64,000 nt of DNA, taken from NCBI RefSeq assembly GCF_031456545.1, contig NZ_JAVDUV010000002.1, positions 62,001 through 126,000 of the forward strand. The letters are read 5' to 3'. Source of the stretch: Agromyces sp. 3263 (lineage in GTDB: Bacteria > Actinomycetota > Actinomycetes > Actinomycetales > Microbacteriaceae). The notes beneath the pieces are model-generated. The model had not been told where the DNA came from and did not search any database. It was given only the letters and a program-made list of their open reading frames with translations. A program made the translations under genes and the position numbers. The stretch's first letter is position 1. The number at the start of each line of letters is the position of its first letter. Positions 1 to 64,000 of this stretch are shown here, piece by piece.

Positions 1-730
1 CCTGCTCGCCGAGATCGCGACGCGGTTCCCCGCGCCGGTGCGGTGGGTGGTGAACACGCACGCGCATTTCGACCACACGTTCGGCAACCAGGCCTTCGGC
101 CCCGGTTCGGCGACGGATGCCGCGATCCACGGCCATGCGGGCATCGCGGCGCACTTCGAGCGCTACGAGGGCCCGCGCCTCGCCGCGTGGCGGGCTGATC
201 ACACCCGCGAGCCCGGACGGCGGTGGCACGACGTGCGCCTCGTCCCGCCGACGCAACCGGTCGAACGGATGACGCGCCTCGACCTCGGCGGCCGCATCGT
301 CGAGCTGCGACCCCAGCCGCCGGCGCACACCGACACCGACCTGGTGCTGTTCGTCCCCGACGTGGGTACGTGGATCGTGGGCGACCTCGTCGAGGAGTCG
401 GGTCCGCCGATGTACGGGTCGGGCAGCTACCCGCTCGACTGGCCCGGGGTGCTCGAAGGGCTCGTCGCCGGCATGCGGGCGGGAGACGTCGTGGTGCCCG
501 GACACGGGCAGGTGGTCGATCGCGCCTTCGTGGCCCGGCAGGCCGCAGAGCTCGCCGAGGTCGCCCGCCGCTTCCGGGAGTCGCACGACGCGGGGCGGTC
601 GACGGCGGAGGCGTTGGCGGCCCACGCCGAGTGGCCGGTGCCGGTCGACGGACTCGGCGGCGCGGTGGAGCGTGCCTACGCGGCCCTCGACGGCCTGCCG
701 CTCGACGAGGGCAGCATCGAGGACGCCTGA
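1..730 (+). CDS. MBL-fold metallo-hydrolase (5' end cut by window edge)
   Basis: This is the C-terminal part of a metallo-beta-lactamase-fold hydrolase. The reading frame is open from base 2, and the start codon lies left of the window. The zinc-binding signature THAHFDHTFGN is visible near the left edge. A later Asp in VGDLVEE and a His in VVPGHGQVV match the remaining metal ligands of the fold. About 240 residues are present. The family includes glyoxalase II-like thioesterases, lactonases and beta-lactamase-like enzymes, and nothing here fixes the substrate. It converges with the MocR-type gene, 10 bases apart at their stops. The family call is firm, the reaction is not. Confidence 0.85.
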   Translation, partial: LLAEIATRFPAPVRWVVNTHAHFDHTFGNQAFGPGSATDAAIHGHAGIAAHFERYEGPRLAAWRADHTREPGRRWHDVRLVPPTQPVERMTRLDLGGRIVELRPQPPAHTDTDLVLFVPDVGTWIVGDLVEESGPPMYGSGSYPLDWPGVLEGLVAGMRAGDVVVPGHGQVVDRAFVARQAAELAEVARRFRESHDAGRSTAEALAAHAEWPVPVDGLGGAVERAYAALDGLPLDEGSIEDA

Positions 731-740
731 GCGGCACCGG

Positions 741-2144
741 TCAGCCGGTGTCGACCGAGCGTATGGCCCTGATCGCGACGTCGATCGCCTCGTCGAAGCG
801 ATGCGACGGGGGAGCGCCGTAGCCGACCACCATGGCCGGCGGATGCCGCCACTCGCTGCCTGCGAGGCGGAAGGAGGCCAGCCCGTCGAAGCGGAGTCCC
901 AGGCGTTCGGCTGCCTCGGTGACCTGCATCTCGCTCGTCGCGGGCGGCAGTTCGAGGAGGCAGTGCAGCCCGGCCGCGAGGCCCGTGATGCGGCATCCGG
1001 GCAGGTCATCCGCGACCCGGGCCTCGAGGGCGAGCCGTCGTGCCCGATACTCGGCGCGGAGCCGTCGGACGTTGCGGTCGTAGTCGTGCGCGGCGATGAA
1101 CCGCTCGAGGGTCCGCTGGTTCAACACATCGGAGGTGGCGCCTGTGAGCCGCCGTTGCGCCGAGATCGGTGCGAGCAGCCGCTCGGGCACCACCGCCCAC
1201 GCGAGGCCAACGGCGGGAGCGAGGCTCTTCGACGCGGTGCCCGCGTAGAGCACGTGGCGCGGCGCGAGCGCCTGGAGCGCGCCGACCGCACGTCGGTCGT
1301 AGCGGAACTCGCCGTCGTAGTCGTCCTCGATCACGAGCCCGCCGGTGCGCTCGGCCCACTCCACCACCGCGCGCCGCCGGGACGGGCTGAGCGGAACACC
1401 GACGGGGAACTGGTGCGCGGCGGTGAGGAGCACCGCGTCCACGTCGCCCAGTTCCTCGATCACGGCGCCGCCCGTGTCGACCCGCACCGGCACGGGTGCG
1501 AGCCCCGCCGCGCGGACGATCTCGCGGTGCGCCTCGTGGCCGACCTCCTCGACGGCGATGCGTCGCGCGCCCTCGGACGCGAGCGCGCGGCACGTCAGGC
1601 TCAGGAGCTCCCCGAATCCTCGGGTCACGATCGTGCGATCGGCGGTCGCGGCCACGCCGCGCACGCGGCCGAGGTACTCCGCGAGCGACGCACGCAGTGC
1701 CACGGTGCCGCGATCCGGCGCGTAGCCCAGCCCGGCCGCCGGCGCGTTCAGCACGGCGTACCTCGCAGCGGCGGCCCATGCGCGACGGGGGAACGACGAG
1801 GCGTCAGGGATGCCGCCTCGGAGGTCGAGGCCGGGGCGCGGCGCCGTCGCGGCATCCGTGGCCTGGGTCGTCGGCTCGGCGGCACGTCGGCTGACCCACG
1901 TGCCTGCGCCGACGCGGGCCTCGAGCCACCCCTCGGCGGTGAGCTGCGCGTAGACGTCGGCGATGCTGTTGCGCGCGATGCCGAGGTCGGCGGCGAGCGT
2001 GCGGGACGCGGGGAGCCTGGTGCCCGCGGCGAGACGGCCCTCGGTGATCGCCGATCGGAGCCCGTGCTCGAGCGCTGCCGCCCTCCCGCCCGCGCCGAGC
2101 TCGAGGTGCAGGTCGAGGCCCGGAATGGCCCATGTTCGGTCCAT
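741..2144 (-). CDS. MocR/PdxR-type GntR regulator with aminotransferase-like domain
   Basis: This 467-residue protein has an N-terminal GntR-type winged helix-turn-helix (about residues 10-75, with [20 protein letters not shown]) fused to a fold-type I aminotransferase domain. The PLP-binding lysine is visible in [17 protein letters not shown]. MocR proteins use this layout to sense PLP or an amino compound and to control a neighbouring gene. The start MDRTWAIPG was chosen because a TACAGT -10 box (2153-2158 on the minus strand) lies 8 bases upstream, which fits a leaderless message. A longer reading frame upstream lacks family similarity. It is divergent from the AhpD-like gene across only 45 bases, so that gene is the likely target. 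The target and ligand are inferred. Confidence 0.88.
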
Positions 2145-2189
2145 GGAATTGGACTGTAGCAGTGGGCCGTTCTTTCGTAGCGTTGAGCC
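2145..2189. promoter_or_regulatory. Face-to-face leaderless promoters of mocR-type gene and ahpD-like gene
   Basis: This is a 45-base divergent intergenic region. On the plus strand TAGCGT (2178-2183) sits 6 bases before the ATG at 2190. On the minus strand TACAGT (2153-2158) sits 8 bases before the ATG at 2144. Neither start has a Shine-Dalgarno sequence. The spacing predicts transcripts starting at or next to the start codon, with each -35 region lying close to or inside the opposite promoter. The boxes are seen directly. Promoter activity is inferred. Confidence 0.55.
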
Positions 2190-4514: not shown

Positions 4515-5363
4515 ATGCGAATCATCACTGCCATCACCCGTGCCCACTCCTCCACCCCCACGACCGACACCGCGAACCCCGGCTCCCGCCGTGGGCTGCG
4601 CCGCCGACGCCTCGGCCGCCGCCGCCTCATCGTGGCCGGCGCCGTCATCGCGACCGGTGTCCTCGTCGGCACCGGCTTCACCGTGCAGAACGCCGTCGCC
4701 ACCCAGGCCCGCGTCGACGCCACCATGGCGCTGAACGCCACCAGCGGCCTGCGCCACGAGCAGCTCGGCGTGTATCGCGGCATCGCCGCGGCCAAGGCCC
4801 TCGACAACGCCGAGGACACCATCACCGCCGCGAACGCGACCCTCGCCGCGGCGAACGGCAAGGTCGACGCGTCGGGTCTCGCGGCATCCGTCGCCTCGCT
4901 CAGCGGCTACCGCAGCATCCCGGTCGACGAGGTCGTCGACCTCACCAAGGTGACGCGCGCGGAGGCGGAGAAGACGGCGGCCGCCGCCGCCGCCTTCGAC
5001 CAGGCGCAGGCCGAGGCCGCCGCCGCCGCGGCCGCAGCGCTCGCTGCCGCGAACACCCCCGACGGTGCGCGCGCCTTCGCCGCCGACTTCGCAGCGTCCC
5101 AGTACGGCTGGGGCGCCGACCAGTTCCAGTGCCTCGACAAGCTCTGGCAGAAGGAGTCGGGCTGGTCGTACACCGCGTTCAACGCGGGTAGCGGCGCCAC
5201 CGGCATCCCGCAGTCGCTGCCCGGCAGCAAGATGGCCAGCGCCGGCGCCGACTGGGAGACCAACGCGGCCACGCAGATCAAGTGGGGCCTCGGCTACATC
5301 AAGGGCTCGTACGGCAGCCCCTGCAGCGCCTGGTCGCACTCGCAGTCGATGAACTGGTACTGA
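4515..5363 (+). CDS. Secreted or membrane-anchored SLT-like lytic transglycosylase
   Basis: This 282-residue exported protein has an Arg-rich N-terminus and a hydrophobic segment (LIVAGAVIATGVLVGTG, about residues 38-55) that acts as signal or anchor. An Ala-rich, probably coiled linker follows (about 70-190). The C-terminal 90 residues resemble the lysozyme-like/aggregation-promoting-factor domain of actinobacterial wall enzymes. LWQKESGWSYTAFN carries the likely catalytic Glu, and GATGIPQSLPGSKMASAGADW follows. It ends immediately after MNWY, as these proteins usually do. ATG 4515 gives the best N-terminus, and GTG 4461 is an in-frame alternative. The 150 bases upstream hold no clear riboswitch. 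Confidence 0.8.
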   Translation: MRIITAITRAHSSTPTTDTANPGSRRGLRRRRLGRRRLIVAGAVIATGVLVGTGFTVQNAVATQARVDATMALNATSGLRHEQLGVYRGIAAAKALDNAEDTITAANATLAAANGKVDASGLAASVASLSGYRSIPVDEVVDLTKVTRAEAEKTAAAAAAFDQAQAEAAAAAAAALAAANTPDGARAFAADFAASQYGWGADQFQCLDKLWQKESGWSYTAFNAGSGATGIPQSLPGSKMASAGADWETNAATQIKWGLGYIKGSYGSPCSAWSHSQSMNWY

Positions 5364-5695: not shown

Positions 5696-6385
5696 CTACG
5701 ACCGGTCGGTCGTGACGAGCGGGGTCATCGCCGCGAGCTCGGGCCCGAGCCCCAGGTCGACGAGCTCGATGCGTCCGGCCCGGCTGGCGCCCGGCTCGAG
5801 GAGCAGCCCCGCCTTCACCGCGCCGAAGGTGACCGTGACCTCGGCGCGCAGCACCGTCGGATCGGGCACCGACCCGTCATCGGGATGGATGCCGCTCGGC
5901 AGGTCGACCGCGACGACCGGGATGCCGCGCTCCTCGACGATCGGCATCGCAGCGGCCACCAGGTCGCGGGCGGTGCCCCGGAGGGCCGGCGCAGCGCTCG
6001 TCCCCGTGCCGAGCAGTCCGTCGACGATGAGCGCCGCGGAACGGAGCGCCCGGTCGACCGCGGCCGCGTCGTCGCGGCCCTGGAACCGCACGCCCGCGGT
6101 TCGAGCCGCCACGGCGCCGTCCGCGTGGATCCGCTCCGAAGCCGGGATCGCGGTCACCGCCATGCCGTCGCCCGCGAGCTCCGCACCGGCGAACAGTGCG
6201 TCGCCGCCGTTGTCGCCCGACCCGACGAGGAGCACCACCGGCCCGCCCGCGGCATCCGACCGTCCCGCCTCGCGACGGATCACTCCCGCCAGCGCCGCCG
6301 CGGCCCGCAGCATGAGCGGCTCACCCGCGGCGAGGTGCGGGGCCTCGGCAGCGCGCACCTGCTCGGCGGAGTACCCGTCGACCAT
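5696..6385 (-). CDS. nnrE: NAD(P)H-hydrate epimerase (YjeF N-terminal domain only)
   Basis: This 229-residue protein matches the YjeF_N domain, which interconverts the R and S forms of hydrated NAD(P)H so that the dehydratase can repair them. Seen motifs are VVLLVGSGDNGGDALFAGAELA (nucleotide-binding loop), IVDGLLGTGTSA and VAVDLPSGIHPDDG. Many bacteria fuse this domain to the NAD(P)HX dehydratase. Here the protein stops after the epimerase, so the dehydratase must be encoded elsewhere. The ATG lies two bases after the stop of the small acetyltransferase gene, so the two are translationally coupled. Confidence 0.88.
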   Translation of the reverse strand: MVDGYSAEQVRAAEAPHLAAGEPLMLRAAAALAGVIRREAGRSDAAGGPVVLLVGSGDNGGDALFAGAELAGDGMAVTAIPASERIHADGAVAARTAGVRFQGRDDAAAVDRALRSAALIVDGLLGTGTSAAPALRGTARDLVAAAMPIVEERGIPVVAVDLPSGIHPDDGSVPDPTVLRAEVTVTFGAVKAGLLLEPGASRAGRIELVDLGLGPELAAMTPLVTTDRS

Positions 6386-8724: not shown

Positions 8725-10343
8725 TGCGGGTGTCGCTCCAACGGCGCCTCGGCCGTCGCCGGGGCTGGCGCGTCCACCGCGTGTTCGGGAAGCGGGCCGC
8801 TGGTCCGGTCTCCGCGCACCCGCTTCAGCACGTTCTCCGCACTGATGAGGCACATCGGCAGGCCGACGCCCGGCACGCTCGAACCGCCCGCGTAGAGCAG
8901 TCCCCGCACCCGGCGCGACCGGTTGGTGCCTCGCAGGAAGGCGCTCTGCCGCAGCGTGTGCGCCGGGCCGAGGGCGCCGCCGCTCCAGGAGTGGAGGTCG
9001 TCGGCGAAGTCGGCGGGACCGACGGTGCGGCGCACGACGATGCGTCGTTCGAGGTCGGGGGCGCCGGCCGCGACGGCCATGCGTGCGACCGCACGGTCGA
9101 CGGCCTGCTCGACGAGCCGGTCGCCCGTGCCGTCCTCGCCGCCGCGGCCGATCGACACGTCGGCGGGCACGGGGATGAGCACGAACAGATTGGAGTCGCC
9201 CGGCGGGGCGACCGTCGGGTCGGTCTCGCTGGGCTTGCACACGTAGAACGACGCGGGGTCGGGGATACGGGGATCGTCGCCGAAGATCTGGTCGAAGTTC
9301 TCCTCCCAGTCCTCGGTGAAGAAGAGCGTGTGGTGCAGGAGCCCGGGCAGGGCGCCCCGCACGCCGAGCATCGCGAGCACCGCGCCGGGGCCCGAGGTGC
9401 GCCGGTCCCACCAGGTCTCCGGGTAGGTCTGCGCCCGGCGCGGCAGCAGCTCGGTCTCGGTGTGGTGCAGGTCGGCGGCGGAGACGACGCGGTGCGCCGG
9501 TACGCGCCGGGAGTGGCCCGCGGCATCCGTCACGCGAACGCCGGTCACCGACGGCGTGGAGTCGTCGGTGAGCTCGATGGCCTGCACCTCGGCGCCGGTC
9601 ACGATCTCGACCCCGGCCGCCTCGGCGATCGCGGCGATGCGCGCGATCACGGTGCCGAACCCGCCCTGCGGGTACAGCACCCCCTGCTCGAGGTCCATGT
9701 GGCTCATGAGGTGGTACATCGCGGGCGCCGAGGACGGCGAGGCGCCGAGGAAGACCGCCGGATAGCCGAGCACCTGCTGCAGGCGCCGGTCGTGCACCGA
9801 ACGGGCCGCGAAGCGGTCGAGCGGCGTCGCGAGGAGCCGGCCCAGGCGAATCGCGCCCCCGAGCACCTCGGGTGCAGCGAAGGCCCGGATGTCGTCGAAG
9901 TTCGTGTAGAGGAAGCGGCGGCGCGCGATGTCGTACGTCGACGCCGCGGAGTCGAGGTATCGCTCGAGCGCGGCCCCCGCGCCCGGCTCGACCGACTCGA
10001 AGAGCGCCACGTTCTCGGCGCGGGAGGCGCGCAGGTCGAGGGGGGCGTCGTAGCCGTCGCCGTAGACCCGGTAGCCGGGGTCGAGCGGCGTGAGGTCGAG
10101 CTGCTCGGCGGCGCTCGTGCCGAAGAGCCGGAAGAAGTGGTCGAAGACCTCGGGCATGAGGTACCACGACGGACCGGTGTCGAATCGGAAGCCGCGCCGC
10201 TCCCAGGTGCCGGCACGCCCGCCCAGTTCTCCGCGCGCCTCGAGGAGGGTGACACGGTGTCCGTCCCGGGCGAGCAGCGCGGCGGAGGCCAGCCCGGCGA
10301 TGCCGCCGCCGATCACGACGATGCGCTCCGACGAGGCGGTCAT
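8721..10343 (-). CDS. crtI: Phytoene desaturase (lycopene-forming)
   Basis: This 540-residue FAD-dependent desaturase converts phytoene to lycopene. The N-terminus holds the dinucleotide-binding fold IVVIGGGIAGLASAALLARDG, followed by LLEARGELGGRAGTWERRGFRFDTGPSWYLMPEVFDHFF, both diagnostic of CrtI. The C-terminal GLLYAGGSSVPGVGLPMCLISAENV is the carotenoid desaturase signature. The length is close to the usual 500-550. It overlaps crtB and crtYe by ATGA quartets at both ends. Number of desaturation steps is inferred from the pathway. Confidence 0.95.
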   Translation of the reverse strand: MTASSERIVVIGGGIAGLASAALLARDGHRVTLLEARGELGGRAGTWERRGFRFDTGPSWYLMPEVFDHFFRLFGTSAAEQLDLTPLDPGYRVYGDGYDAPLDLRASRAENVALFESVEPGAGAALERYLDSAASTYDIARRRFLYTNFDDIRAFAAPEVLGGAIRLGRLLATPLDRFAARSVHDRRLQQVLGYPAVFLGASPSSAPAMYHLMSHMDLEQGVLYPQGGFGTVIARIAAIAEAAGVEIVTGAEVQAIELTDDSTPSVTGVRVTDAAGHSRRVPAHRVVSAADLHHTETELLPRRAQTYPETWWDRRTSGPGAVLAMLGVRGALPGLLHHTLFFTEDWEENFDQIFGDDPRIPDPASFYVCKPSETDPTVAPPGDSNLFVLIPVPADVSIGRGGEDGTGDRLVEQAVDRAVARMAVAAGAPDLERRIVVRRTVGPADFADDLHSWSGGALGPAHTLRQSAFLRGTNRSRRVRGLLYAGGSSVPGVGLPMCLISAENVLKRVRGDRTSGPLPEHAVDAPAPATAEAPLERHPQ

Positions 10344-23154: not shown

Positions 23155-23646
23155 GTGCCGGAACGCCCCATTCGCCTGTTCGGCGACCCTGTCCTGAAGA
23201 CCGTCTCCGCCCCCGTCGAACAGATCGACGATGGCGTGCGCGCGCTCGTCGCCGACCTCATCGACAGTGTGAAGCTCCCGGGCCGTGCGGGGGTGGCGGC
23301 GTCGCAGATCGGGGTCAACCTGCGCGCGTTCAGCTACAACGTCGACGGCGAGGTCGGATACATCCTGAATCCCGAGATCGTCGAGGTGTCGGGCGAGGTC
23401 GAGGCCATCGACGAGGGGTGCCTGTCGGTTCCGGGGCTCTGGCACAAGACGCCGCGGCATCCGTTCGCCCGGGTTCGCGGCATCGACCTCGACGGCAACG
23501 AGGTCGAGCTCTCGGGCTCGGGCCTGATGGCGCAGGCACTGCAGCACGAGACCGACCACCTCGACGGCATCCTCTACCTCGACCGGCTCGAGAAGGCCGA
23601 ACGTCGGGTCGCGATGAAGGAGGTGCGCGAGTCGGACTGGTTCTGA
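23155..23646 (+). CDS. def: Peptide deformylase
   Basis: This 163-residue metalloenzyme removes the formyl group from nascent proteins. All three motifs are present: [13 protein letters not shown] (motif 1), DEGCLSVPG with the metal-binding Cys (motif 2), and [15 protein letters not shown] with the HExxH metal ligands (motif 3). The start is GTG with a weak upstream purine tract (GGAG). It is the last gene before a bidirectional terminator and probably shares a transcript with the MinD-like gene. Confidence 0.96.
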
Positions 23647-23679: not shown

Positions 23680-23720
23680 ACGAAGAAGGGCCCCGCGGAT
23701 GCCGCGGGGCCCTTCTTCGT
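23680..23720. terminator. Perfect 19-bp hairpin, bidirectional terminator
   Basis: Arms at 23680-23698 and 23702-23720 are perfectly complementary over 19 bases with a 3-base loop. They include AAGAAGGGCCCCGCGG and its complement. It sits between the convergent def and acyl-CoA synthetase genes. The arms end in short A- and T-rich runs (GAAGAA / TTCTTC), so it can terminate from either side. The loop region also creates a copy of the CGGATGCCGC word. Confidence 0.85.
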
Positions 23721-28873: not shown

Positions 28874-28901
28874 CGTGGGGCATCCGTGCGGGTGTCCCAC
28901 G
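28874..28901. terminator. Hairpin between aroG and pknL
   Basis: This 28-base hairpin has a 12-bp stem with two G-U pairs (CGTGGGGCATCC / GGGTGTCCCACG) and a GTGC loop between the convergent genes. No T-run follows in either direction, so efficiency is uncertain. Its position between convergent stops makes termination its likely role. Confidence 0.6.
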
Positions 28902-30881: not shown

Positions 30882-30987
30882 CGAAGAGGTGTATGCCCGT
30901 CGCCGACTAAACGCCGCGCAACGCCGAGATCGAAACGCCTTCGTGACCGACGGATGCCGCGTGCCGGCCCCGTGCGCATGCTCGCCG

Positions 30988-45431: not shown

Positions 45432-46528
45432 CGACCTACCTGCTGGCCGGCGGCGGGACCGCGGGCCACGTGAATCCCCTGCTCGCCGTCGCCGACCGCC
45501 TGCGCGATCGACGGCCCGACGACGAGGTGCTCGTGCTCGGCACGGCGGAGGGACTCGAGGCGCGGCTCGTGCCGGCTCGCGGCTACGAGCTCCTGACGAT
45601 CGCCAAGGTGCCATTCCCGCGTCGTCCGAACCGCGCCGCCGTCGCGTTCCCCTCCCGCTTCCGCACGTCGATCGACGATGTCGCCACGATCATCGCGGAG
45701 CGCGGCGTCGAGGTCGTCGTCGGCTTCGGCGGGTACGTCTCGACCCCCGCCTACCTGGCCGCGCGACGGGCGCACGTGCCGGTGGCCATCCACGAGGCGA
45801 ACGCCAGGCCGGGGCTGGCGAATCGCCTCGGCGCGCGCTGGGCGGCATCGGTGGGCGTCGCCTTCGGCGGCTCGCCGCTCCGTGGCGCCGAGGTCGTCGG
45901 CATGCCCCTCCGCCGTGAGATCGAGACGCTCGACCGTCGGGCGCTTCGCGAGGAGGCGGCCGGGTTCTTCGGCCTCGATCCCCAGCGCCCGGTGCTCCTC
46001 GCGACGGGCGGCTCGCTCGGCGCCCGCCGCATCAACCGCACGATGGTCGAGAGCGCGAGCACCCTCACGGGCTCCGACTGGCAGGTGCTCCACATCACGG
46101 GCGCGTCCTCCGACGTGGTCGACCCGGCGATTCCCGGCTATCGCTTGGTCGAGTACGCCGACCGCATGGACCTGGCGCTGGCCCTCGCCGACGCCGCCGT
46201 CTCGCGCGCGGGCGCCGCGACGGTGAGCGAGCTGGCCGCCCTCGGCATCCCCGCCGTCTACGTGCCGTATCCCGTCGGCAACGGCGAGCAGCGCTTCAAC
46301 GCTGCCGAGGTCGTGGCCGCGGGCGGCGGCGTGCTCGTCGACGACGCCGGGTTCGTCCCCGACTGGGTCCGCCGGGAGCTCGTCCTGTTGCTCGCCGACC
46401 GCGAGCGCGTGGCGCGCATGGCCGCGGCCGCGGCATCCGTCGGCCACCGCGACGGCACCGACCGCATGATCGCCCTCGTCGACGCCGCGCTCGGCGGGGG
46501 TGCCGGCGCCGCCACGCGCAGCGCGTAA
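45428..46528 (+). CDS. murG: UDP-GlcNAc transferase MurG
   Basis: This 366-residue peripheral membrane glycosyltransferase makes lipid II from lipid I. The glycine-rich LLAGGGTAGHVNPLLAVAD loop, VVGFGGYVSTPAYLAARR, PVAIHEANARPGLANRLGARW, LLATGGSLGARRINRTMV and SRAGAATVSELAALGIPAVYVPYP (UDP-GlcNAc site) are all present. ATG overlaps the ftsW stop in ATGA. Confidence 0.96.
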   Translation: MTTYLLAGGGTAGHVNPLLAVADRLRDRRPDDEVLVLGTAEGLEARLVPARGYELLTIAKVPFPRRPNRAAVAFPSRFRTSIDDVATIIAERGVEVVVGFGGYVSTPAYLAARRAHVPVAIHEANARPGLANRLGARWAASVGVAFGGSPLRGAEVVGMPLRREIETLDRRALREEAAGFFGLDPQRPVLLATGGSLGARRINRTMVESASTLTGSDWQVLHITGASSDVVDPAIPGYRLVEYADRMDLALALADAAVSRAGAATVSELAALGIPAVYVPYPVGNGEQRFNAAEVVAAGGGVLVDDAGFVPDWVRRELVLLLADRERVARMAAAAASVGHRDGTDRMIALVDAALGGGAGAATRSA

Positions 46529-46603
46529 CGTGGAGTGAGCGGATGCCGTGGCATCCGTGGCACGCCGACCCGAACGCATCACCCCGAGGAAGAGCCGCAG
46601 CAC

Positions 46604-48017: not shown

Positions 48018-49097
48018 GTGAAGCGGCCCCAGGGCTTCGACCGGCCGCCCGCACCGCGGGCGACCGCACGTGCGCAGGCCGCTGCGCCGTCGGCGGGGGA
48101 TGCCCGGACCGACGCGCGTCGGTCGGTGGATGCCGCGAGCGCCGGTGCCTCGTCGGCGGATGCCCCGGTGGCCACCGCCTCCCGGCCGGCCGACCGCGAC
48201 CGGGTGGCGACCGAGCCGATCCCCGTGGTCGCCGGGCCCACCGCCGGATCGCCGGGAGACACGATCGCTCCGACGTCGCCCGCGGCATCCGACGTCGTTC
48301 CGATCGACCTGCCGACCGATTCGCCCGCCGACGCGCGCGCCTCGAAGCGCGCCATCGCCGCGGCGGCCCGGGAACGCCGGCGCTACGAGCGCCAGGAGGT
48401 ACGCCGTTTCACGAAGCGGTCGCGCCGACGCCGCATCACGTGGGCGGTCGTCACGGGCGCGGTCCTCGCACTCGTGGCGGTCATCGGCGTGGGCGCCTAC
48501 TCGCCGCTCATGGCGCTGCGCGACGTGCGCGTCGAGGGTGCGCAGCGCATCCCCGCCGCCGACGTGCAGGCCGCGTTCGCCGGAGTGATGGGAACCCCGC
48601 TCCCGCTCATCGACTCCGGCGACGTGCAGGCGGCGCTCGCGCGATTCCCGCTCATCGAGACCTACGTGACCGAGACGATCCCGCCGGGCACGCTCGTCGT
48701 GCGCATCGTCGAGCGGACCCCGGTCGGCGTGATCGACACGGGGTCGGGCCTCGAACTGGTGGATGCCGCCGGCGTGGTCATCGACCGGCCCGAGACGGTG
48801 CCCGCCGGCCAGCCGCTCATCGAGGTCGACGGCGGCATCGCCGACGAGGGCTTCCGTGCCGTCGCCTCGGTCGTGCGCAGCCTTCCGGCCGAGGTCCGCG
48901 GACAGCTGACCCGTGCGACGGCGGCGACGGCCGACGACGTGCGGCTCGAGCTGGGGGGCGGCGCGAGCGTGGTCTGGGGGAGTGCCGAGGACTCGGTGCT
49001 GAAGGCCGACGTGCTCGCCGGGCTGATGCGCGCGGCGCCGCCCGACACGGTGGCGTTGTACGACGTCTCGGCACCCACGAGCCCCGTGACCGAGTGA
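48018..49097 (+). CDS. ftsQ: Divisome protein FtsQ
   Basis: This 359-residue bitopic protein has a long disordered cytoplasmic N-terminus (about 130 residues, Ala/Pro/Asp-rich), a membrane helix (ITWAVVTGAVLALVAVIGVGAYS) and an extracellular POTRA domain starting SPLMALRDVRVEGAQRIPAADV. A beta domain continues with ETIPPGTLVVRIVERTPVGVI. FtsQ bridges early and late divisome proteins. The N-terminus contains three copies of GGATGCC within about 65 bases at the DNA level. Confidence 0.9.
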   Translation: MKRPQGFDRPPAPRATARAQAAAPSAGDARTDARRSVDAASAGASSADAPVATASRPADRDRVATEPIPVVAGPTAGSPGDTIAPTSPAASDVVPIDLPTDSPADARASKRAIAAAARERRRYERQEVRRFTKRSRRRRITWAVVTGAVLALVAVIGVGAYSPLMALRDVRVEGAQRIPAADVQAAFAGVMGTPLPLIDSGDVQAALARFPLIETYVTETIPPGTLVVRIVERTPVGVIDTGSGLELVDAAGVVIDRPETVPAGQPLIEVDGGIADEGFRAVASVVRSLPAEVRGQLTRATAATADDVRLELGGGASVVWGSAEDSVLKADVLAGLMRAAPPDTVALYDVSAPTSPVTE

Positions 49098-50532: not shown

Positions 50533-51204
50533 ATGAGCGAGCTCGCCGACCGACTCGCGTCCGTCCGAGGCAGCATCGCGGATGCCGCGCGCGACGCCGG
50601 ACGGCATCCGAACGAGATCACGACCATCGTGGTGACGAAGTTCCAGCCGGCGTCGCTCGTGGCGGAGCTCGCCGCGCTCGGCGTCGAGGACTTCGGCGAG
50701 AACCGGCACCAGGAGGCGCAGGCGAAGGCCGCAGAGCTCGCCTCCCTCGGAGTCCGGTGGCACTTCGTCGGGCAGCTGCAGAGCAAGAAGGCCAGGCAGG
50801 TCCGCGGGTATGCCACGGCGATCCATTCCGTCGACCGCGCGTCGCTCGTCGACGCCCTTCGATCGGATGCCGCGACCATCGACGCGTTCGTGCAGGTCAA
50901 CCTCACCGACGACCCCGGTCGCGGCGGCGTGCAGCCCGACGAGGTCGACCGGCTGGCGGAGCAGGTGCTCGCGACTCCAGGCCTGCGCCTGCGGGGACTG
51001 ATGGCCGTGGCGCCGCTCGGCGAGCCGCCCCGTCCGGCGTTCGCACGGATGCACCTGCTCTCCGAGCGGGTGCAAAACCTGGCACCCGACGCACAGGCGT
51101 TGTCCATGGGGATGTCGCACGATTTCCGTGAGGCGATCTTGGAGGGCGCGACACACCTGCGGATCGGCACCGCAATCACCGGGAATCGGCCGGACGCCGG
51201 TTAG
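50533..51204 (+). CDS. PLP-homeostasis protein YggS
   Basis: This 223-residue protein of the YggS/COG0325 family binds pyridoxal phosphate through the Lys in IVVTKFQPAS. Other marks are DFGENRHQEAQAKA, RWHFVGQLQSKKARQV, LRGLMAVAP and LSMGMSHDFREAILEGATHLRIGTAI. It controls free PLP levels and amino-acid pools. Its place between ftsZ and sepF is widespread in Gram-positives. Its stop TAG overlaps TAGCCT, a candidate -10 for sepF. Confidence 0.95.
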   Translation: MSELADRLASVRGSIADAARDAGRHPNEITTIVVTKFQPASLVAELAALGVEDFGENRHQEAQAKAAELASLGVRWHFVGQLQSKKARQVRGYATAIHSVDRASLVDALRSDAATIDAFVQVNLTDDPGRGGVQPDEVDRLAEQVLATPGLRLRGLMAVAPLGEPPRPAFARMHLLSERVQNLAPDAQALSMGMSHDFREAILEGATHLRIGTAITGNRPDAG

Positions 51205-51716: not shown

Positions 51717-52034
51717 GTGGGCGCACTGGCCGTCGTCTGGAACATCCTCTACACGCTGCTCCTCGTCTACTTCTTCGTGATGTGGGCGAGGTTCGTGCTG
51801 GACCTCGTCCGCACGTTCAACCGCTCGTGGAGGCCGCGCGGCGCCTGGCTCGTCGTCGTCGAGACGGTGTACAGCGTCACGGATCCGCCCGTGCGCTTCT
51901 TCCGGCGGATCGTGCCGCCGATCCGCATCGGCCAGGTCGCACTCGATCTCGGGTGGAGTCTGGCGATGCTGCTGGTCATCGTCGCCATGACCGTGGTGTC
52001 CTGGCTGGCGGCGGGCGCCGCGGCATCCGCCTGA
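51717..52034 (+). CDS. YggT-family membrane protein
   Basis: This 105-residue protein has two hydrophobic segments (WNILYTLLLVYFFVMWARFVLDLV and LGWSLAMLLVIVAMTVVSWLAAG), with PPVRFFRRIVPPIRIGQVALDLGW between them, the YggT signature. It lies between sepF and divIVA, its usual place in Gram-positives, and probably takes part in membrane organisation at the septum. GTG start 5 bases after sepF, without a strong ribosome binding site, so coupling is likely. Confidence 0.9.
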   Translation: MGALAVVWNILYTLLLVYFFVMWARFVLDLVRTFNRSWRPRGAWLVVVETVYSVTDPPVRFFRRIVPPIRIGQVALDLGWSLAMLLVIVAMTVVSWLAAGAAASA

Positions 52035-53508: not shown

Positions 53509-54429
53509 ATGGAGCACCGCTCGTTCCCCGTGCCCGACGGGCTCGACGGCGTGCGCGTCGACCAGGGCCTCGCGAAGCTCCTCGGCTTCTCCCGTACGCA
53601 GGCGGCGGAGATCGCCGGGTCGGGCGGGGCGGTGCTCGACGGGGCATCCGTCGACAAGTCCGACCGGCTGCGCGCGGGGGGCTGGCTCGAGGTGAGCTGG
53701 GAGCCGCCGCGCACGGTGCAGGTCGAGGCGATCCCCGTGCCCGACCTCGGCATCGTGCACGACGACGACGACCTCGTGGTGGTCGACAAGCCCGCGGGGG
53801 TCGCCGCGCATCCGTCGCTCGGCTGGAACGGTCCCACGGTCGTGGGCGCCCTCGCCGCCGCGGGGTTCCGCATCTCCACCTCGGGCGCGCCCGAGCGCCA
53901 GGGTGTCGTGCACCGGCTCGACGCGGGCACGAGCGGCCTCATGGTCGTCGCGAAGTCCGAGCGGGCGTACACCGAGCTGAAGCGCCAGTTCCACGACCGG
54001 GAGGTCGAGAAGATCTACCACACCGTGGTGCAGGGTCATCCCGACCCGCTCGCGGGCACGATCGACGCACCAGTCGGGCGGCATCCGCGGTCGGAGTGGA
54101 AGTTCGCCGTGACCGCCGACGGCAAGCACGCGGTGACCCACTACGAGACGATCGAGGCCTTCCCGTACGCGTCGCTGCTCGAGGTGCACCTCGAGACGGG
54201 GCGCACGCACCAGATCCGCGTGCACATGGCGGCGCAGCGGCATCCGTGCGCCGGAGATGCGATGTACGGAGCCGATCCGACGCTGTCGGCGCGACTCGGC
54301 CTCACCCGCCAGTGGCTCCATGCCAGGCAGCTGTCGCTGACGCATCCCGGCACGGGCTCCTGGACGACGTTCGAGTCGGAGTACCCCGCCGATCTCTCCC
54401 ACGCGCTCGAACTGCTCCGCGGGGACTGA
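53509..54429 (+). CDS. RluA-family pseudouridine synthase (RluD-like)
   Basis: This 306-residue rRNA or tRNA modifying enzyme has an N-terminal S4 domain ([49 protein letters not shown]). The catalytic RluA domain holds [22 protein letters not shown] with the catalytic Asp, and [28 protein letters not shown]. The site modified is unassigned. ATG 53509 lies 2 bases after lspA. Confidence 0.9.
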
Positions 54430-54518: not shown

Positions 54519-57500
54519 GTGGCCGCCGATTCCTTCGTCCACCTCCACGTGCACAGCGAGTACTCGATGCTCGACGGCGCCGCCCGGGTGGGGGAGCTCA
54601 TCAAGGCGGCGCAGGGCGAGGGCATGCCCGCCGTGGCGGTCACCGACCACGGCAACGTGTTCGGCGCCTACGACTTCTGGAAGCAGGCCACCGACGCCGG
54701 CATCAAGCCGATCATCGGCACCGAGGCCTACATCACGCCGGGCACGCACCGCGGCGACAAGACCCGGGTGCGATGGGGGAACGGCGGCGGCGACGACGTC
54801 TCGGGCTCGGGCGCCTACACGCACATGACCCTGCTGTCCGAGACGACCGAGGGCATGCACAACCTCTTCCGGCTCTCGAGCCGCGCCTCGATCGAGGGCT
54901 ACTACTTCAAGCCGCGCATGGACCGCGAGCTGCTCGAGACGTACTCGACGGGCCTCATCGCCACGACCGGATGCCCCTCCGGGGAGGTGCAGACCCGCCT
55001 GCGGCTCGGGCAGTACGACGAGGCCGTGCGCGCGGCATCCGAGTACCGCGACATCTTCGGGAAGGAGAACTACTTCGCCGAGATCATGGACCACGGGCTC
55101 GGCATCGAGACCCGCATCATGGAGGACCTGCTGCGGCTCGCGAAGCAGCTCGACCTGCCGCTGGTCGCGACGAACGACCTGCACTACACGCACGCGCATG
55201 ACGCGAAGAGCCACGCGGCACTGCTCTGCGTGCAGTCGGGTTCGACGCTCGACGACCCGAACCGGTTCAAGTTCGACGCCGACGAGTTCTACCTGAAGAC
55301 GGCCGCCGAGATGCGGCACCTCTTCCGCGACCACCCCGAGGCGTGCGACAACACCCTGCTCATCGCCGAGCGCGCAGACGTGCAGTTCAACACCAACGCG
55401 AACTACATGCCCCGCTTCCCCGTGCCCGAGGGCGAGAGCGAGGAGAGCTGGTTCGTGAAGGAGGTGGACCGCGGGCTCGCCGTGCGCTACCCCGACGGCA
55501 TCCCCAGCGAGGTGCGCAAGCAGGCCGACTACGAGGTCGGCGTCATCCTGCAGATGGGCTTCCCCGGGTACTTCCTCGTCGTCGCCGACTTCATCAACTG
55601 GTCGAAGAACAACGGCATCCGCGTCGGACCGGGTCGTGGCTCCGGCGCGGGGTCGATGGCCGCCTACGCGATGCGCATCACCGACCTCGACCCGCTGCAG
55701 CACGGGCTCATCTTCGAGCGGTTCCTGAACCCCGACCGCGTCTCGATGCCCGACTTCGACGTGGACTTCGACGAGCGTCGTCGCGGCGAGGTCATCAAGT
55801 ACGTCACCGAGAAGTACGGCGACGAGCGCGTCGCGCAGATCGTCACCTACGGCACCATCAAGGCCAAGCAGGCGCTGAAGGACTCGAGCCGCGTGCTCGG
55901 GTTCCCGTTCGGCATGGGCGAGAAGCTCACCAAGGCCATGCCGCCGGCGATCATGGGCAAGGACATCCCGCTGTCGGGCATCCTCGACTCGGCTCATCCG
56001 CGCTACAAGGAGGCCGGTGACATCCGGGCCATCATCGAGACCGACGCCGAGGCGAAGACGGTCTTCGAGACGGCCCTCGGCCTCGAGAACCTGAAGCGCC
56101 AGTGGGGCGTGCACGCGGCCGGCGTGATCATGTCGAGCGACCCGCTCATCGACATCATCCCGATCATGAAGCGGGAGCAGGACGGCCAGATCGTCACGCA
56201 GTTCGACTACCCCGCATGCGAGTCGCTCGGCCTCATCAAGATGGACTTCCTGGGGCTGCGCAACCTCACCATCATCGACGACGCGCTCGACAACATCGAG
56301 GCCAACCGCGGCTTCCGTCCCGTGCTCGAAGACCTCGCGCTCGACGACCCCGAGGCCTATGCGCTCCTCTCCCGCGGTGACACGCTCGGCGTCTTCCAGC
56401 TCGACGGCGGACCGATGCGCTCGCTGCTCCGGCAGATGAAGCCCGACAACTTCGAGGACATCTCGGCCGTCATCGCCCTCTACCGGCCGGGCCCGATGGG
56501 CGCGAACTCGCACATCAACTACGCGCTCCGCAAGAACGGCCTGCAGCCGATCACGCCGATCCATCCCGAGCTCGAGGAGCCGCTGAAGGACATCCTCGAC
56601 ACCAGCTACGGCCTGATCATCTACCAGGAGCAGGTCATGGCGATCGCCCAGCGCGTCGCGGGCTTCTCGCTCGGGCAGGCCGACATCCTCCGGCGCGCGA
56701 TGGGCAAGAAGAAGAAGTCCGAGCTCGACAAGCAGTACGAGGGCTTCTCGGGGGGCATGAAGGCCAACGGGTTCTCGGATGCCGCGGTCAAGACGCTGTG
56801 GGACATCCTCCTGCCCTTCTCCGACTACGCCTTCAACAAGGCGCACTCCGCCGCCTACGGCGTGCTCAGCTATTGGACGGCCTACCTCAAGGCCCACTAC
56901 CCGGCCGAGTACATGGCCGCACTGCTCACGAGCGTCGGCGACGCCCGCGACAAGCTCGCGCTCTACCTCAACGAGTGCCGCCGCATGGGCATCAAGGTGC
57001 TGCCGCCCGACGTGAACGAGTCGATCGGCTACTTCGCGGCGGTCGGCGAGGACATCCGGTTCGGGCTCGGCGCCGTGCGCAACGTCGGGTTCAACGTGGT
57101 CGACGCGATCCGCGCCGCTCGCGAGCAGAAGGGCCGGTTCGAGTCGTTCCACGACTTCCTGAAGAAGTCGCCGATCCAGGTCGCGAACAAGCGCACCGTC
57201 GAGTCGCTGGTGAAGGCGGGCGCCTTCGACTCGCTCGGCCACACGCGGCGGGCGCTCGTCGAGATCCACGAGGGCGCCGTCGAGTCGGCCGTCAAGGAGA
57301 AGCGGGCCGAGGAGGTCGGCGACGTCGGCTTCGATTTCGACAGCCTCTTCGAGGACCACGAGCGCGAGTCGGTCCCGTCGCTCGTACCCGACCGGCCCGA
57401 GTGGGCCAAGCGCGACAAGCTGGCGTTCGAGCGCGAGATGCTCGGGCTCTACGTCTCCGACCACCCCCTCGCCGGGCTCGAGGTGCCGCTCGCGAAGCAC

Positions 57501-58084: not shown

Positions 58085-59392
58085 ATGCTGCGAACCATCG
58101 ACTTGCGCGGAACCCGTCCATCGGCGAGCGAACTGCTCGCCCTCGTGCCACGCGCCGCGACCGACGTCACGGCGGCGCTCGACCCGGCGCGCGCCCTCAT
58201 CGACGCCGTGCGCGAGCGCGGCGAGTCGGCGCTCCTCGACCAGGCCGAGCGGTTCGACCGAGTCCGCCCGGCGGCGGTGCGGGTGCCGGCGGCAGAGCTC
58301 GGGGCCGCCCTCGACGCGCTCGCGGGCGACGTGCGCTCGGCCCTCGAGTCGACGATCGCCCGCGTCCGGGCTGCGAGCGCCGCACAGGTGCCGGCGCCCG
58401 AGCGCACGCAACTGGCCGACGGCGCGATCGTCGAGCAGCGGTGGCAGCCGGTGGCCCGCGTCGGCCTGTACGTGCCGGGCGGCAAGGCGGTCTACCCGTC
58501 GAGCGTCGTGATGAACGTCGTCCCCGCGCAGGTCGCCGGAGTGCGGTCGATCGCGCTCGCCTCACCCCCGCAGGCCGAGTTCGGCGGCCGCATCCACCCG
58601 ACGATCGCGGCGGCGGCGGCGCTCCTCGGCGTCACCGAGGTGTACGCGATGGGCGGCGCGGGCGCCATCGGTGCCTTCGCGTACGGCGTCCCCGAGATCG
58701 GGCTCGATCCCGTGCAGCGCGTCACCGGCCCGGGCAACGTGTACGTCGCCGCGGCGAAGCGACTCGTGCAGGGCGTCACCGGCATCGACGCGGAGGCCGG
58801 CCCGACCGACATCCTCGTCATCGCCGACGACGCGGCCGATCCCGACCTCGTCGCCGCCGACCTCGTGAGCCAAGCCGAGCACGACGAGCTCGCGGCATCC
58901 GTGCTCGTCACCGACTCGGCCGAGTTCGCCGACCTCGTTCGCGACCGACTCGAGGCGCGCGTGGCCGCCACGAAGCACGCGGCGCGCGTGCGCACGGCCG
59001 TCGAGGGCGTGCAGTCGGCCGTGGTGCTCGTCGACGACCTCGAGCGCGCAGCCGACTTCTCGAACGCGTTCGGACCCGAGCACCTCGAGATCCAGGTGCG
59101 CGACACCGACGCCGTGCTCGCCCGCATCGAGAACGCCGGCGCGATCTTCGTCGGCCCGTACTCGCCGGTGAGCCTCGGCGACTACGCCGCGGGCTCCAAC
59201 CACGTGCTGCCCACGGGCGGGCAGGCCAGGTCGACCGCCGGCCTCTCGGCCGCGACGTTCCTGCGCCCGCAGCAGGTCGTCCGCTACGACGAGCGTGCGT
59301 TGCGCGAGGTCGCCCCGGTCATCGCCGCGCTGTCGGCCGAGGAGGACCTGCCCGCGCACGGCGAGGCGGTCACGGCGCGCTTCGAGCGCTGA
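58085..59392 (+). CDS. hisD: Histidinol dehydrogenase
   Basis: This 435-residue enzyme carries out the last two steps of histidine synthesis with NAD. It contains VGLYVPGGKAVYPSSVVMNVVPAQVAGV, GGAGAIGAFAYG, VTGPGNVYVAAAKRLVQG, and ALSAEEDLPAHGEAVTAR at the end. Zinc-binding residues lie in SQAEHDELA and FGPEHLEIQ. ATG 58085 is 9 bases after TAGGCT, near-leaderless. No other his gene is adjacent in the window. Confidence 0.96.
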   Translation: MLRTIDLRGTRPSASELLALVPRAATDVTAALDPARALIDAVRERGESALLDQAERFDRVRPAAVRVPAAELGAALDALAGDVRSALESTIARVRAASAAQVPAPERTQLADGAIVEQRWQPVARVGLYVPGGKAVYPSSVVMNVVPAQVAGVRSIALASPPQAEFGGRIHPTIAAAAALLGVTEVYAMGGAGAIGAFAYGVPEIGLDPVQRVTGPGNVYVAAAKRLVQGVTGIDAEAGPTDILVIADDAADPDLVAADLVSQAEHDELAASVLVTDSAEFADLVRDRLEARVAATKHAARVRTAVEGVQSAVVLVDDLERAADFSNAFGPEHLEIQVRDTDAVLARIENAGAIFVGPYSPVSLGDYAAGSNHVLPTGGQARSTAGLSAATFLRPQQVVRYDERALREVAPVIAALSAEEDLPAHGEAVTARFER

Positions 59393-60002: not shown

Positions 60003-61070
60003 ATGTATCGACTCCTCTTCTCCCTCGTCCTCTCCCGCATGGATCCCGAAGACGCGCACCACCTCGCGTTCCGGGTCATCCGGATGCTGCCGGCGCTCGG
60101 GTTTGGACGGCTCGTCGAGCTCGCCACGCGGCCCGATCCGTCGCTCGCGGTGCGCGCGCTCGGCCGCACGTTCGCGTCGCCGTTCGGCGTCGCCGCCGGC
60201 TTCGACAAGGACGGGTTCGCCGTGCGCGGCCTCGGCAACCTCGGCTTCGGGCACGTCGAGGTCGGCACGATCACGGCCGTCGCCCAGCCCGGCAACGAGC
60301 GGCCCCGGCTGTTCCGCCTGGTGCGCGACCGCGCCCTCGTGAACCGCATGGGCTTCAACAACGGCGGGGCGGATGCCGCGGTCGGCCGCCTGTCGCGGCT
60401 CTCTCGCCGATCGCACCGTCCCGTGCTCGGGGTGAACATCGGCAAGAGCCGGGTCACCGCCGTCGAGGACGCGGTGGGCGACTACGAACGGAGCGCCCGC
60501 GTGCTGGCGCCGTTCGCCGACTACCTCGTCGTCAACGTCAGCTCGCCGAACACGCCGGGCCTGCGGGGCCTGCAGGAGCTCGACGCGCTCGCGCCGCTGC
60601 TCGAGGCCGTACGGGCGATCGCGGGCACCACCCCGCTCCTCGTCAAGATCGCCCCCGACCTTGCCGACGACGAGGTGGTGCGCATCTGCGAGCTGGCGAC
60701 GCGCCTGGGCCTCGACGGGATCATCGCCACGAACACGACGATCTCCCGCGACGGGCTCACTGCCTCCGCGGCCGAGCTCGAGCGGATCGGCGCCGGGGGG
60801 CTTTCGGGTGCGCCGCTCGCCGCGCGCTCCATGGAGGTGCTGCGCCTCGTTCGCGCGAACGTGCCCGCGGACCTCTGCGTGATCTCGGTGGGCGGGGTGG
60901 AGACCGCCGAGGACGTGCAGTCCCGTATCGACGCGGGCGCCACGCTCGTGCAGGGCTACTCGGCCTTCATCTACCGCGGGCCGCTCTGGGCACGCCAGGT
61001 CAACCGCGGGCTCGCGCGCATCCGCCGGTCTTCCGGTCGAGCGGATGCCGCGGCGCCCGGCGGCGACTGA
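60003..61070 (+). CDS. pyrD: Dihydroorotate dehydrogenase (quinone), class 2
   Basis: This 355-residue flavoenzyme of pyrimidine synthesis is membrane-linked through an N-terminal extension (MYRLLFSLVLSRMDPEDAHHLAFRVIRML), marking class 2. Core motifs are FGVAAGFDKDGFAVRGLGNLGFGHVEVGTIT, RMGFNNGGADA, VVNVSSPNTPGLRGLQ with the catalytic Ser, and the FMN-binding SVGGVETAEDVQSRIDAGATLVQGYSAFIYRGP. ATG 60003 is 10 bases after TAGCCT (59987-59992). GTG 59952 would add an N-terminus unlike the family. Confidence 0.95.
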   Translation: MYRLLFSLVLSRMDPEDAHHLAFRVIRMLPALGFGRLVELATRPDPSLAVRALGRTFASPFGVAAGFDKDGFAVRGLGNLGFGHVEVGTITAVAQPGNERPRLFRLVRDRALVNRMGFNNGGADAAVGRLSRLSRRSHRPVLGVNIGKSRVTAVEDAVGDYERSARVLAPFADYLVVNVSSPNTPGLRGLQELDALAPLLEAVRAIAGTTPLLVKIAPDLADDEVVRICELATRLGLDGIIATNTTISRDGLTASAAELERIGAGGLSGAPLAARSMEVLRLVRANVPADLCVISVGGVETAEDVQSRIDAGATLVQGYSAFIYRGPLWARQVNRGLARIRRSSGRADAAAPGGD

Positions 61071-62905: not shown

Positions 62906-63034
62906 ACCACGGGCTCGGGCGCGGCACGACCCTCATGTGACGCGCCGAGTGTCAACGCGTTGCCCTGACGGGGGAATGATGTTTGGCTTGGACTCCGGCT
63001 TCCGGGCGACGACCCGAGACGAGTGAGGCAGCCC

Positions 63035-63847
63035 ATGATCGAGTTCCGCCGCGTCACCAAGCAGTTCCCCGACGGCACCGTCGCGGTCGAGAACGTCGAC
63101 ATCGTGATTCCGCCGCGCAAGACGACCGTGCTGGTCGGGTCGTCCGGATCGGGCAAGACGACGCTCCTTCGGATGATCAACCGCATGGTCGACCCGAGCG
63201 GCGGCCAGGTGCTCATCGACGGCACCGACGTCGCCACGGTCGATCCGGTGCAGTTGCGCCGCGGTATCGGCTACGTCATGCAGAACTCGGGCCTCCTCCC
63301 GCACCGCACCGTCATCGACAACGTCGCCACCGTCCCGCTGCTCCGCGGCACCGGCAAGCGCCAGGCCTATGATCGCGCGCTGGAGCTCATGGACACCGTG
63401 GGCCTCGACCGTTCGCTCGCCGACCGATATCCGAGCCAGCTCTCCGGGGGTCAGCAGCAGCGGGTCGGCGTCGCGCGCGGGCTCGCCGTGGACCCGAACA
63501 TCCTGCTCATGGACGAGCCGTTCGGCGCGGTCGATCCGATCGTCCGGGCCGAGTTGCAACAGGAGCTGCTCCGGCTGCAGGGCGAGCTCGGCAAGACGGT
63601 GGTCTTCGTCACCCACGACATCGACGAGGCGTTCCTGCTCGGCGATCAGGTGGTCATCATGCAGCGCGGCGGGAAGATCTCGCAGGCCGCCTCGCCGAGC
63701 GAGATCCTCGCGCGCCCGGCCGACGCGTTCGTGGCCGACTTCGTGGGCGCCGACCGCGGCAAGCGCGCGCTGCACCTGACGGACGTCGACGGACGCCGAG
63801 TGGTCGTCGACGCCGACGGACGTCCGGCGGGGGTCCTCGCCCCGTGA
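63035..63847 (+). CDS. ABC transporter ATPase, osmoprotectant (OpuA/ProV) type
   Basis: This 270-residue ATPase has Walker A VLVGSSGSGKTTLLRMINRM, Q-loop YVMQNSGLLPHRTVIDNVA, signature LSGGQQQRVGVARGLAVDPNILLMDEPFGAVDPIVR with Walker B, and the H-loop FVTHDIDEAF. The wording MVDPSGGQVLIDG and PLLRGTGKRQ is typical of glycine betaine/choline transporters, although no CBS domain is present. ATG 63035 is preferred over GTG 63023. Stop overlaps the permease GTG in GTGA. Confidence 0.88.
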   Translation: MIEFRRVTKQFPDGTVAVENVDIVIPPRKTTVLVGSSGSGKTTLLRMINRMVDPSGGQVLIDGTDVATVDPVQLRRGIGYVMQNSGLLPHRTVIDNVATVPLLRGTGKRQAYDRALELMDTVGLDRSLADRYPSQLSGGQQQRVGVARGLAVDPNILLMDEPFGAVDPIVRAELQQELLRLQGELGKTVVFVTHDIDEAFLLGDQVVIMQRGGKISQAASPSEILARPADAFVADFVGADRGKRALHLTDVDGRRVVVDADGRPAGVLAP

Positions 63848-64000
63848 ACTGGCTCTGGTCGAACCTCGACCTCGTCGGCGAGCTCATGCTCGTGCACCTG
63901 GCATTGTCGGTGCCCGCGATCATACTGAGCTTCGTGGCGTCGGTCCCCATCGGATGGCTCGCGCACCGCTACCGGTGGTCGCGAGGCGTGCTCCTGTCCC
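63844..64000 (+). CDS. ABC transporter permease, osmoprotectant type (3' end cut by window edge)
   Basis: Only the first 52 residues are present, beginning NWLWSNLDLVGELMLVHLALS and continuing PAIILSFVASVPIGWLAHRY. This matches the start of OpuBB-like permeases, where the first membrane helix is followed by a basic loop. It overlaps the ATPase stop in GTGA, so they are translated together. The remainder, including any binding protein, is outside the window. Confidence 0.8.
   Translation, partial: MNWLWSNLDLVGELMLVHLALSVPAIILSFVASVPIGWLAHRYRWSRGVLLS

Follow-up and report, generated by a model that had tools for sequence, protein, structure and literature searches.

Introduction

To our knowledge, genomes that are marked by uptake words are found only in two Gram-negative families. 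ComP, the known receptor of the DNA uptake sequence (DUS), belongs to the type IVa pilus class. The uptake signal sequence (USS) of Haemophilus influenzae is present in about 1,500 copies in 1.8 Mb. The word described here, the 10-mer CGGATGCCGC/GCGGCATCCG, was noticed in a preliminary description of a 64-kb stretch of the genome of Agromyces sp. 3263 (C2:62001-126000), and this whole stretch is called the window. The word system is real, family-wide, and dialect-forming. It resembles the DUS in most of the genomic features tested, and it does not resemble it in receptor pilus class. A probability of about one half is given to the reading that the word is a DUS-like "self" tag of the Microbacteriaceae, in which case these bacteria would be transformable, would prefer word-bearing DNA, and would possess a protein that reads the word.

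The PMC7811141 abstract opens by naming these two Gram-negative families. The DUS of the Neisseriaceae, as described in PMC3630211, form dialects, are sited permissively between genes, and make inverted pairs at terminators. Like these DUS, the Agromyces word is a non-palindromic 10-12-mer in very many copies with related dialects among relatives, and it too is permissively sited between genes and forms inverted pairs at terminators. It differs in phylum and in sequence, no ComP-type receptor is known for it, and PilM, which marks type IVa pili, is missing from the two genomes richest in the word. Pasteurellaceae USS have a similar density and more than one specificity within the family. Unlike this word, they have a proposed receptor, ComN, a type IV minor pilin of a Gram-negative pilus (PMC12616744, in part). 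Because no receptor was found, the word is not filed here as a member of the DUS or USS.

HIP1 of the cyanobacteria is likewise an 8-mer that is iterated in the genomes of a whole group, and it too is replaced by variants in some of them; the variant GGGATCCC is similar to CGGATCC, the word of a relative, G164 (PMC4390886, in part). HIP words are palindromic and linked to methyltransferases, whereas the consensus of the Agromyces word is not a palindromic 8-mer. Micrococcus luteus belongs to the same order as the word-rich family. Its Flp/Tad pili and ComEA/EC serve transformation (PMC6370729 and PMC8467076, both in part), and Agromyces similarly has comEA-comEC plus a Flp/Tad locus. A search of two M. 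luteus papers for the term "uptake sequence" did not find it. No description of such a word, of uptake signals, or of transformation was found for the word-rich family in the open-licence literature.

The word in the window and in the genome

GGATGCC/GGCATCC was found 87 times in the window by exact count (42 + 45), which agrees with the earlier by-eye figure of about 85 and with roughly equal orientations. The 10-mer was found 28 times (11 + 17), where 25-28 copies had been estimated. Sixteen of the 17 example positions that had been listed were right to within one base, and the site that had been placed at 32210 is at 32198. Under a third-order Markov model fitted to the window, 21.4 copies of the 7-mer and 1.5 of CGGATGCCGC are expected. 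For the core, CGGATGCC, 8.3 copies are expected and 58 were observed. Under a maximal-order model the expectations rise to 66.9 for the 7-mer and 23.0 for the 10-mer, and most of the excess is absorbed, because sub-words of CGGATGCCGC are themselves enriched.

The genome (G000; 3 contigs, 4,072,969 bases) contains CGGATGCCGC 2,784 times, 1385 times on the forward strand and 1399 on the reverse, and the window holds a small part of these copies. This is one copy per 1.46 kb, or about 680 per Mb. The same pattern read backwards, as a control, is present 55 times (29 forward, 26 reverse). The over-represented word of the preliminary description is thus confirmed. An enriched, short, non-palindromic word that is spread over the whole genome, with both orientations about equal, is also what is seen for the DUS and USS. 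A short contig, C3 (5.6 kb, 56% GC), has zero copies and is perhaps a collapsed ribosomal RNA operon.

Codon use was explored in a detailed sample of 449.6 kb of G000 that includes the window. The 433 open reading frames (ORFs) called in it contain 213 copies of the 10-mer. Synonymous shuffling within genes gave 18.3 (standard deviation 3.6), a context-preserving shuffle gave 44.3, and a shuffle with both neighbouring codons fixed gave 131.6 (standard deviation 4.9), so that a codon-pair type of shuffle does not reproduce the counts. Enrichment is not limited to one frame, since all six classes of frame and orientation were above the shuffled expectation. The excess ranged from 1.4-fold, where the core is read as Gly-Ile-Arg, to about 80-fold. 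It had been remarked that many copies use rare codons, and this is right. GCA makes up 6.0% of Ala codons, and GCA-TCC was found 174 times among Ala-Ser pairs (15 expected). GAT-GCC was found 237 times (78 expected).

Consensus and siting

The gene caller was simple and missed genes (e.g., at 730-2190). Non-coding figures, including those for the consensus, site conservation, and dialect counts, are therefore contaminated by missed genes. Among 80 copies outside called genes, the consensus was A/G, then CGGATGCC, then a preferred GCG (74/89/70%). Single-base variants inside the core were present in 0-4 copies each, versus 39 copies of the 11-base consensus, and variants at flank positions were commoner than those within the core. 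Orientation was balanced in each of the 7 sample chunks that hold copies (each p>0.2). Relative to the direction of genes, the core was slightly more often antisense (196) than sense (146).

The core was densest between convergent genes (11.2/kb), with 2.9 in tandem gaps, 1.0 in divergent gaps, and 0.92 in genes. The intergenic test was repeated on short gaps only, the 189 of 20-150 bp (14.4 kb). These gaps contain 30 copies of the 10-mer (0.38 expected) and 52 of the core (2.6 expected). Core pairs less than 60 bp apart were inverted in 33 of 36 cases and often form terminator-like hairpins. In the subset that was read, 12 of 14 intergenic inverted pairs were no more than 100 bp from a stop codon. 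A strong hairpin between convergent genes carries the copy at 23696 in its loop, which bears out the earlier remark on a terminator loop. In G000 the word thus favours intergenic DNA and forms inverted pairs where genes end, as the DUS and USS do. Among relatives, where numbers are small, pairs were mostly inverted in G280 (3/3), G004 (4/4), G063 (5/6), G215 (8/9), and G006 (10/11). Inverted pairing was less marked in G142 (2/3), G079 (4/6), and G110 (15/26), and G240 had no close pair. A longer intergenic element of the repetitive extragenic palindrome or bacterial interspersed mosaic element (REP/BIME) type was considered and rejected, since the flanks show no strong preference past about 12 bases and, of 269 sampled copies of the 10-mer, 218 are within called genes.

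Taxonomic range and dialects

CGGATGCCGC was counted in 299 genomes of the family. G000 was highest, followed by G142 (2441), G102 (1702), G280 (1637), G212 (1441), and G063 (1358), while others were at control level. An order-level survey of 297 genomes included 274 from outside the family (19 other families). These had at most 152 copies (G521, control 52) and by eye were mostly near control, with low-count exceptions such as G513 (59 versus 6). Of the 20 families sampled, one was strongly enriched, and the closest named loci suggest that this family is the Microbacteriaceae. A search among relatives had been proposed, and it found the same word in some genomes of the family and own versions in others. 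In named loci of 23 kb, where counts are small, the core was about 2- to 6-fold over expectation in Microbacterium, Cryobacterium, Humibacter, Glaciibacter, and Mycetocola, with the exception of one Microbacterium metagenome-assembled genome (L096). No such excess was found in the Curtobacterium and Plantibacter loci, and it was at most about twofold in those of Arthrobacter, Kocuria, and Rothia.

Species within the family have largely exclusive dialects, which are CGGATGCCGC, CGGATGYCTC, CAGGATCCG, CGGATCC, and AGGAGGCG. When words were tabulated for 14 genomes (G194, 12.6 kb, was left out), most genomes were rich in a single word type, with the other types close to expectation. The exceptions were sub-dialects that share the CGGATGCC core, an overlap of AGGATCCG with CGGATCC, and G045. 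Among congeners, G142 and G280 share CGGATGCCGC, G524 favours CGGATGCCTC and CGGATGTCTC, G079 favours CGGATGCCTC and CGGATGCCAC, and G240 carries CGGATGCCTC and CGGATGCCGC about equally. Other genera have other words. G004 contains 62 genic copies of AGGATCCG (7.5 expected) and 16 intergenic copies (0.5 expected), and G164 contains 168 genic copies of CGGATCC (39 expected) and 34 intergenic copies (8.8 expected). G164 and G215 are of one genus, yet their words differ. In 140 kb of G110, AGGAGGCG was found 81 times in genes (33 expected) and 40 times between them (2.3 expected). This word has preferred G and C further downstream and no obvious relation to the other dialect words. Ribosome-binding sites were rejected as its explanation, since only 2 of 41 intergenic copies are close to a start.

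Over the 299 genomes, CAGGATCCG was most frequent in G004 (816), G087 (677), G285 (499), G047 (352), G201 (338), G150 (313), and G164 (247), which contain 41, 48, 85, 29, 56, 36, and 58 copies of CGGATGCCGC, respectively. Related dialects among relatives are thus another feature in common with the DUS and USS. Separately, CATTTGGCGG was found 5 times in 40 kb of G004 (L135-L136; 0.02 expected). In G045 (L143-L144) a GGTCTCGATACGCC-like sequence recurs, and CGTATCGAGA was found 9 times in 40 kb (0.05 expected), perhaps as an intergenic repeat element.

Core sites of a 104-kb region were kept in five congeners (81-83% identity) at 34/74, 33/74, 30/75, 22/64, and 21/64 positions. These are 46, 45, 40, 34, and 33%, whereas 300 permuted words gave 26-30%. 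For sites that are not in called genes, retention was 50-78% versus 12-23% for the control (7-11 sites each). The sites are therefore retained more often than control words, with turnover. Where G000 and G524 share a core, the next base, G in G000, was T in G524 at 4 of 12 sites (background 2.9%), and in G240 this was so at 2 of 19, both small numbers.

Competence, pilus, and methyltransferase genes

Competence machinery is present, as in bacteria with a DUS or USS. A comEA-comEC locus was found about 14 kb past the end of the window, its ComEA being recognised by HhH and SLBB domains (Pfam). Both proteins were found in 11 of 11 relatives compared, across dialects, and comparison of their identity across dialects revealed general divergence only. 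A Tad-like locus of G000 adjoins a topA-like gene (names other than that of the ATPase were given by eye). The N-terminus of its Flp is very similar to that of the M. luteus Flp printed in PMC6370729. Pilin sequences (Flp, TadE, TadF) were compared by reading across dialects, and relatives of all five genes of this topA-linked locus were found in 13 of the 14 relatives fetched. By eye, the locus of G164 is split (L193, L201). TadE/TadF are by topA beside a TIR-like gene, and TadA/TadC are on another contig, where they adjoin a transposase-like gene.

PilM was found in 37 of 66 genomes and in 19 of the 32 word-rich ones. It is absent from G280, G240, and G079, and it is present in the third richest genome (G102), in G212 and G063, and in the poorer congeners G194 and G524. 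A type IVa pilus receptor was rejected as a requirement, since PilM is lacking in 13 word-rich genomes and present in these two poorer ones. The type IVa-pilus minor-pilin receptor that characterises the DUS and USS was thus not found, and its marker is absent from G000.

A further Tad-like locus of G000 (C1:1190522-1191358; L106:8435-15482) contains an ATPase of a higher-scoring class. Among the matches listed, this class was found in G000, G142, G280, G063, G182, G143, and G241, all of which are word-rich. A conserved, orphan-looking PF01555 DNA methyltransferase is encoded at L205:4869-5759, with relatives in L207-L224. G000:C2:576001-592000 (L206) has many small ORFs and further N6/N4 methyltransferase matches and by eye is possibly a mobile element.

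Copies in the window

The copies of the 10-mer in the window are listed in Table 1, together with core copies in hairpins.

Table 1. Positions of the word and of selected core copies in the 64-kb window.
Feature	Position	Strand	Setting
CGGATGCCGC	114..123	+	in gene
CGGATGCCGC	840..849	+	in uncalled gap 730-2190, probably a gene missed by the caller
CGGATGCCGC	990..999	-	in uncalled gap 730-2190
CGGATGCCGC	1849..1858	-	in uncalled gap 730-2190
CGGATGCCGC	4881..4890	-	in gene
CGGATGCCGC	6249..6258	-	in gene
CGGATGCCGC	9520..9529	-	in gene
CGGATGCCGC	23454..23463	-	in gene
CGGATGCCGC	23696..23705	+	loop of terminator-like hairpin, convergent genes; predicted -45.0 kcal/mol for 68 bases
CGGATGCCGC	27615..27624	-	in gene (DAHP synthase)
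core CGGATGCC	28879..28886	-	hairpin between convergent genes; predicted -37.2 kcal/mol for 68 bases
CGGATGCCGC	30951..30960	+	intergenic
CGGATGCCGC	32198..32207	+	in gene
CGGATGCCGC	36615..36624	-	in gene
CGGATGCCGC	37795..37804	-	in gene (penicillin-binding protein)
CGGATGCCGC	42684..42693	+	in uncalled gap 42677-43672
CGGATGCCGC	43758..43767	-	in called gene
CGGATGCCGC	46430..46439	-	in gene
inverted core pair	46540..46557		+ at 46540, - at 46550; hairpin directly after stop codon
CGGATGCCGC	48282..48291	-	in gene
CGGATGCCGC	50579..50588	+	first arm of inverted pair; core copy 24 bases on
CGGATGCCGC	50864..50873	+	in gene
CGGATGCCGC	52020..52029	-	at gene end
CGGATGCCGC	54078..54087	-	in gene
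CGGATGCCGC	54237..54246	-	in gene
CGGATGCCGC	55032..55041	-	in DNA polymerase III alpha gene
CGGATGCCGC	56776..56785	+	in DNA polymerase III alpha gene
CGGATGCCGC	58892..58901	-	in gene
CGGATGCCGC	60370..60379	+	in gene
CGGATGCCGC	61042..61051	+	in gene

Discussion

Three possible roles had been suggested for the word: a methylation target, a Chi-like or uptake-type recognition word, and a nucleoid protein site. Among these the uptake-type role fits best. It is preferred because there is no chromosomal orientation bias, inverted pairs stand at gene ends, the word is restricted to one family, dialects exist, and the com and Flp loci are conserved. In this scheme, DNA would be taken up through a ComEA-ComEC channel that is loaded by a Flp/Tad-type pilus. 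A surface receptor, possibly a pilin-like protein or ComEA itself, would prefer DNA that bears the word. Recombination of preferentially imported DNA from kin could then spread copies and keep them where they do little harm, and copies would thus be densest between genes and at the 3' ends of genes, as inverted hairpin pairs. If the specificity of the receptor drifts, the word of the genome may drift along with it, which would give rise to dialects.

Several observations weigh against an uptake role. A ComEC match is present in 66 of 66 genomes (partial in G096), word-rich or not, and so are ATPases of the T2SSE family, a group that includes the Tad ATPases, so neither discriminates. In G285, the ComEC match is broken into two parts that lie in different frames (C1:2981383-2982173), despite 499 copies of CAGGATCCG. 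The word-rich genomes that lack PilM include the two richest, G000 and G142. No Flp was seen at the split tad loci of G164 although its CGGATCC word is strong, and no clear word was found in G045 despite a full Flp locus. A candidate in the latter, GCTGCTCGA, was dropped because it looks codon-driven (24 sense, 5 antisense). Exclusivity of dialects is not strict, as G126 has 794 copies of CGGATGCCGC and 170 of CAGGATCCG. Inverted pairing is not clear in G524 (10/23, with a 6-mer) and G164 (5/11). In the more distant congeners, retention within genes is only slightly above control (0.30 versus 0.29 in G079), and the dialect shift at shared sites was not seen in G079 (1/9, a small number). A comparison of core with accessory DNA in the G000 region gave no clear difference in word density between the parts that align and those that do not. 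Even spacing was sought in the G000 sample and not found; spacing is close to random.

The strongest competitor, though an unlikely one, is a HIP1-like iterated word that is tied to an orphan DNA methyltransferase, with copies kept by methylation-linked repair, recombination, or control of replication. HIP words reach 1000-2000 per Mb, a density comparable to or higher than that found here, and they have replacement variants (GGGATCCC) and links to orphan methyltransferases (PMC4390886, in part). PF01555 methyltransferase matches are present in 41 of 41 genomes tested, in all dialects. The conserved enzyme, roughly 270-320 amino acids, was read in 19 genomes, which cover every dialect. By eye, no obvious restriction gene adjoins it in the six contexts inspected. 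However, the word is not palindromic, and the enzyme aligns closely by eye across unrelated words (G000, G110), with no visible tracking of dialect. PF02086 and PF07669 were found in only 5 and in 22 of the 41 genomes, respectively. A binding site for a nucleoid, chromosome-organising, or transcription-termination protein, under direct selection at gene ends and elsewhere, also remains a rival and is rather less probable again. It would suit the siting of copies where genes converge and in hairpins, for which the excess is very strong. Against it, the bulk of the 10-mer copies are within called genes, where they take either orientation and every frame, and the rapid change of dialect between congeners would be hard on an essential binding protein.

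A polar signal for recombination or segregation, like Chi or the FtsK orienting polar sequences (KOPS), is improbable. The word is GC-rich, asymmetric, and genome-wide, as such a signal would be, but the 7 chunks have no orientation bias, the overall ratio is 1385:1399, and a polar signal would not be expected to form inverted pairs. Base composition and preference for codons, codon pairs, or amino acids are already refuted as explanations. Some frames do encode common peptides (Ala-Ala-Ser, Asp-Ala), but all three shuffles were too low (18, 44, and 132 versus 213), and because of these results the codon, codon-pair, and amino-acid explanations are rejected. The fold excess is also greater between genes than within them, which bears out the earlier view that amino-acid preference alone is insufficient.

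Two phages whose hosts are in the family are not enriched for the word of the window. Phage Min1 has 6 cores (5.4 expected) and no 10-mer. In the first 50 kb of the Clavibacter phage CMP1 (L186) the word of the window is absent, and CGGATCC is present 18 times (8.1 expected). A 20-kb, polysaccharide-type stretch of G000 (C1:505-525 kb, glycosyltransferase-like by eye) contains no 10-mer and 6 cores; it was picked because it is empty of words and is not an independent test. These observations fit any slow process that spreads words, not uptake alone.

To return to the uptake reading, a wider suggestion can be made tentatively. The Actinomycetota may have evolved sequence-specific uptake of self-DNA independently of the Neisseriaceae and Pasteurellaceae, with family-wide words, dialects of species, a receptor linked to Flp/Tad or ComEA and not a type IVa minor pilin, and resulting barriers to gene flow between species. 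If this is true, a Gram-positive family with the same marks and a different pilus would represent an independent origin. It would provide a comparative test in the long-standing debate on why uptake specificity evolves, whether by mate choice, drive, or as a by-product, and it would suggest that barriers to recombination separate many related bacteria. Should the uptake reading prove wrong, family-wide, replaceable genome words would still need explaining.

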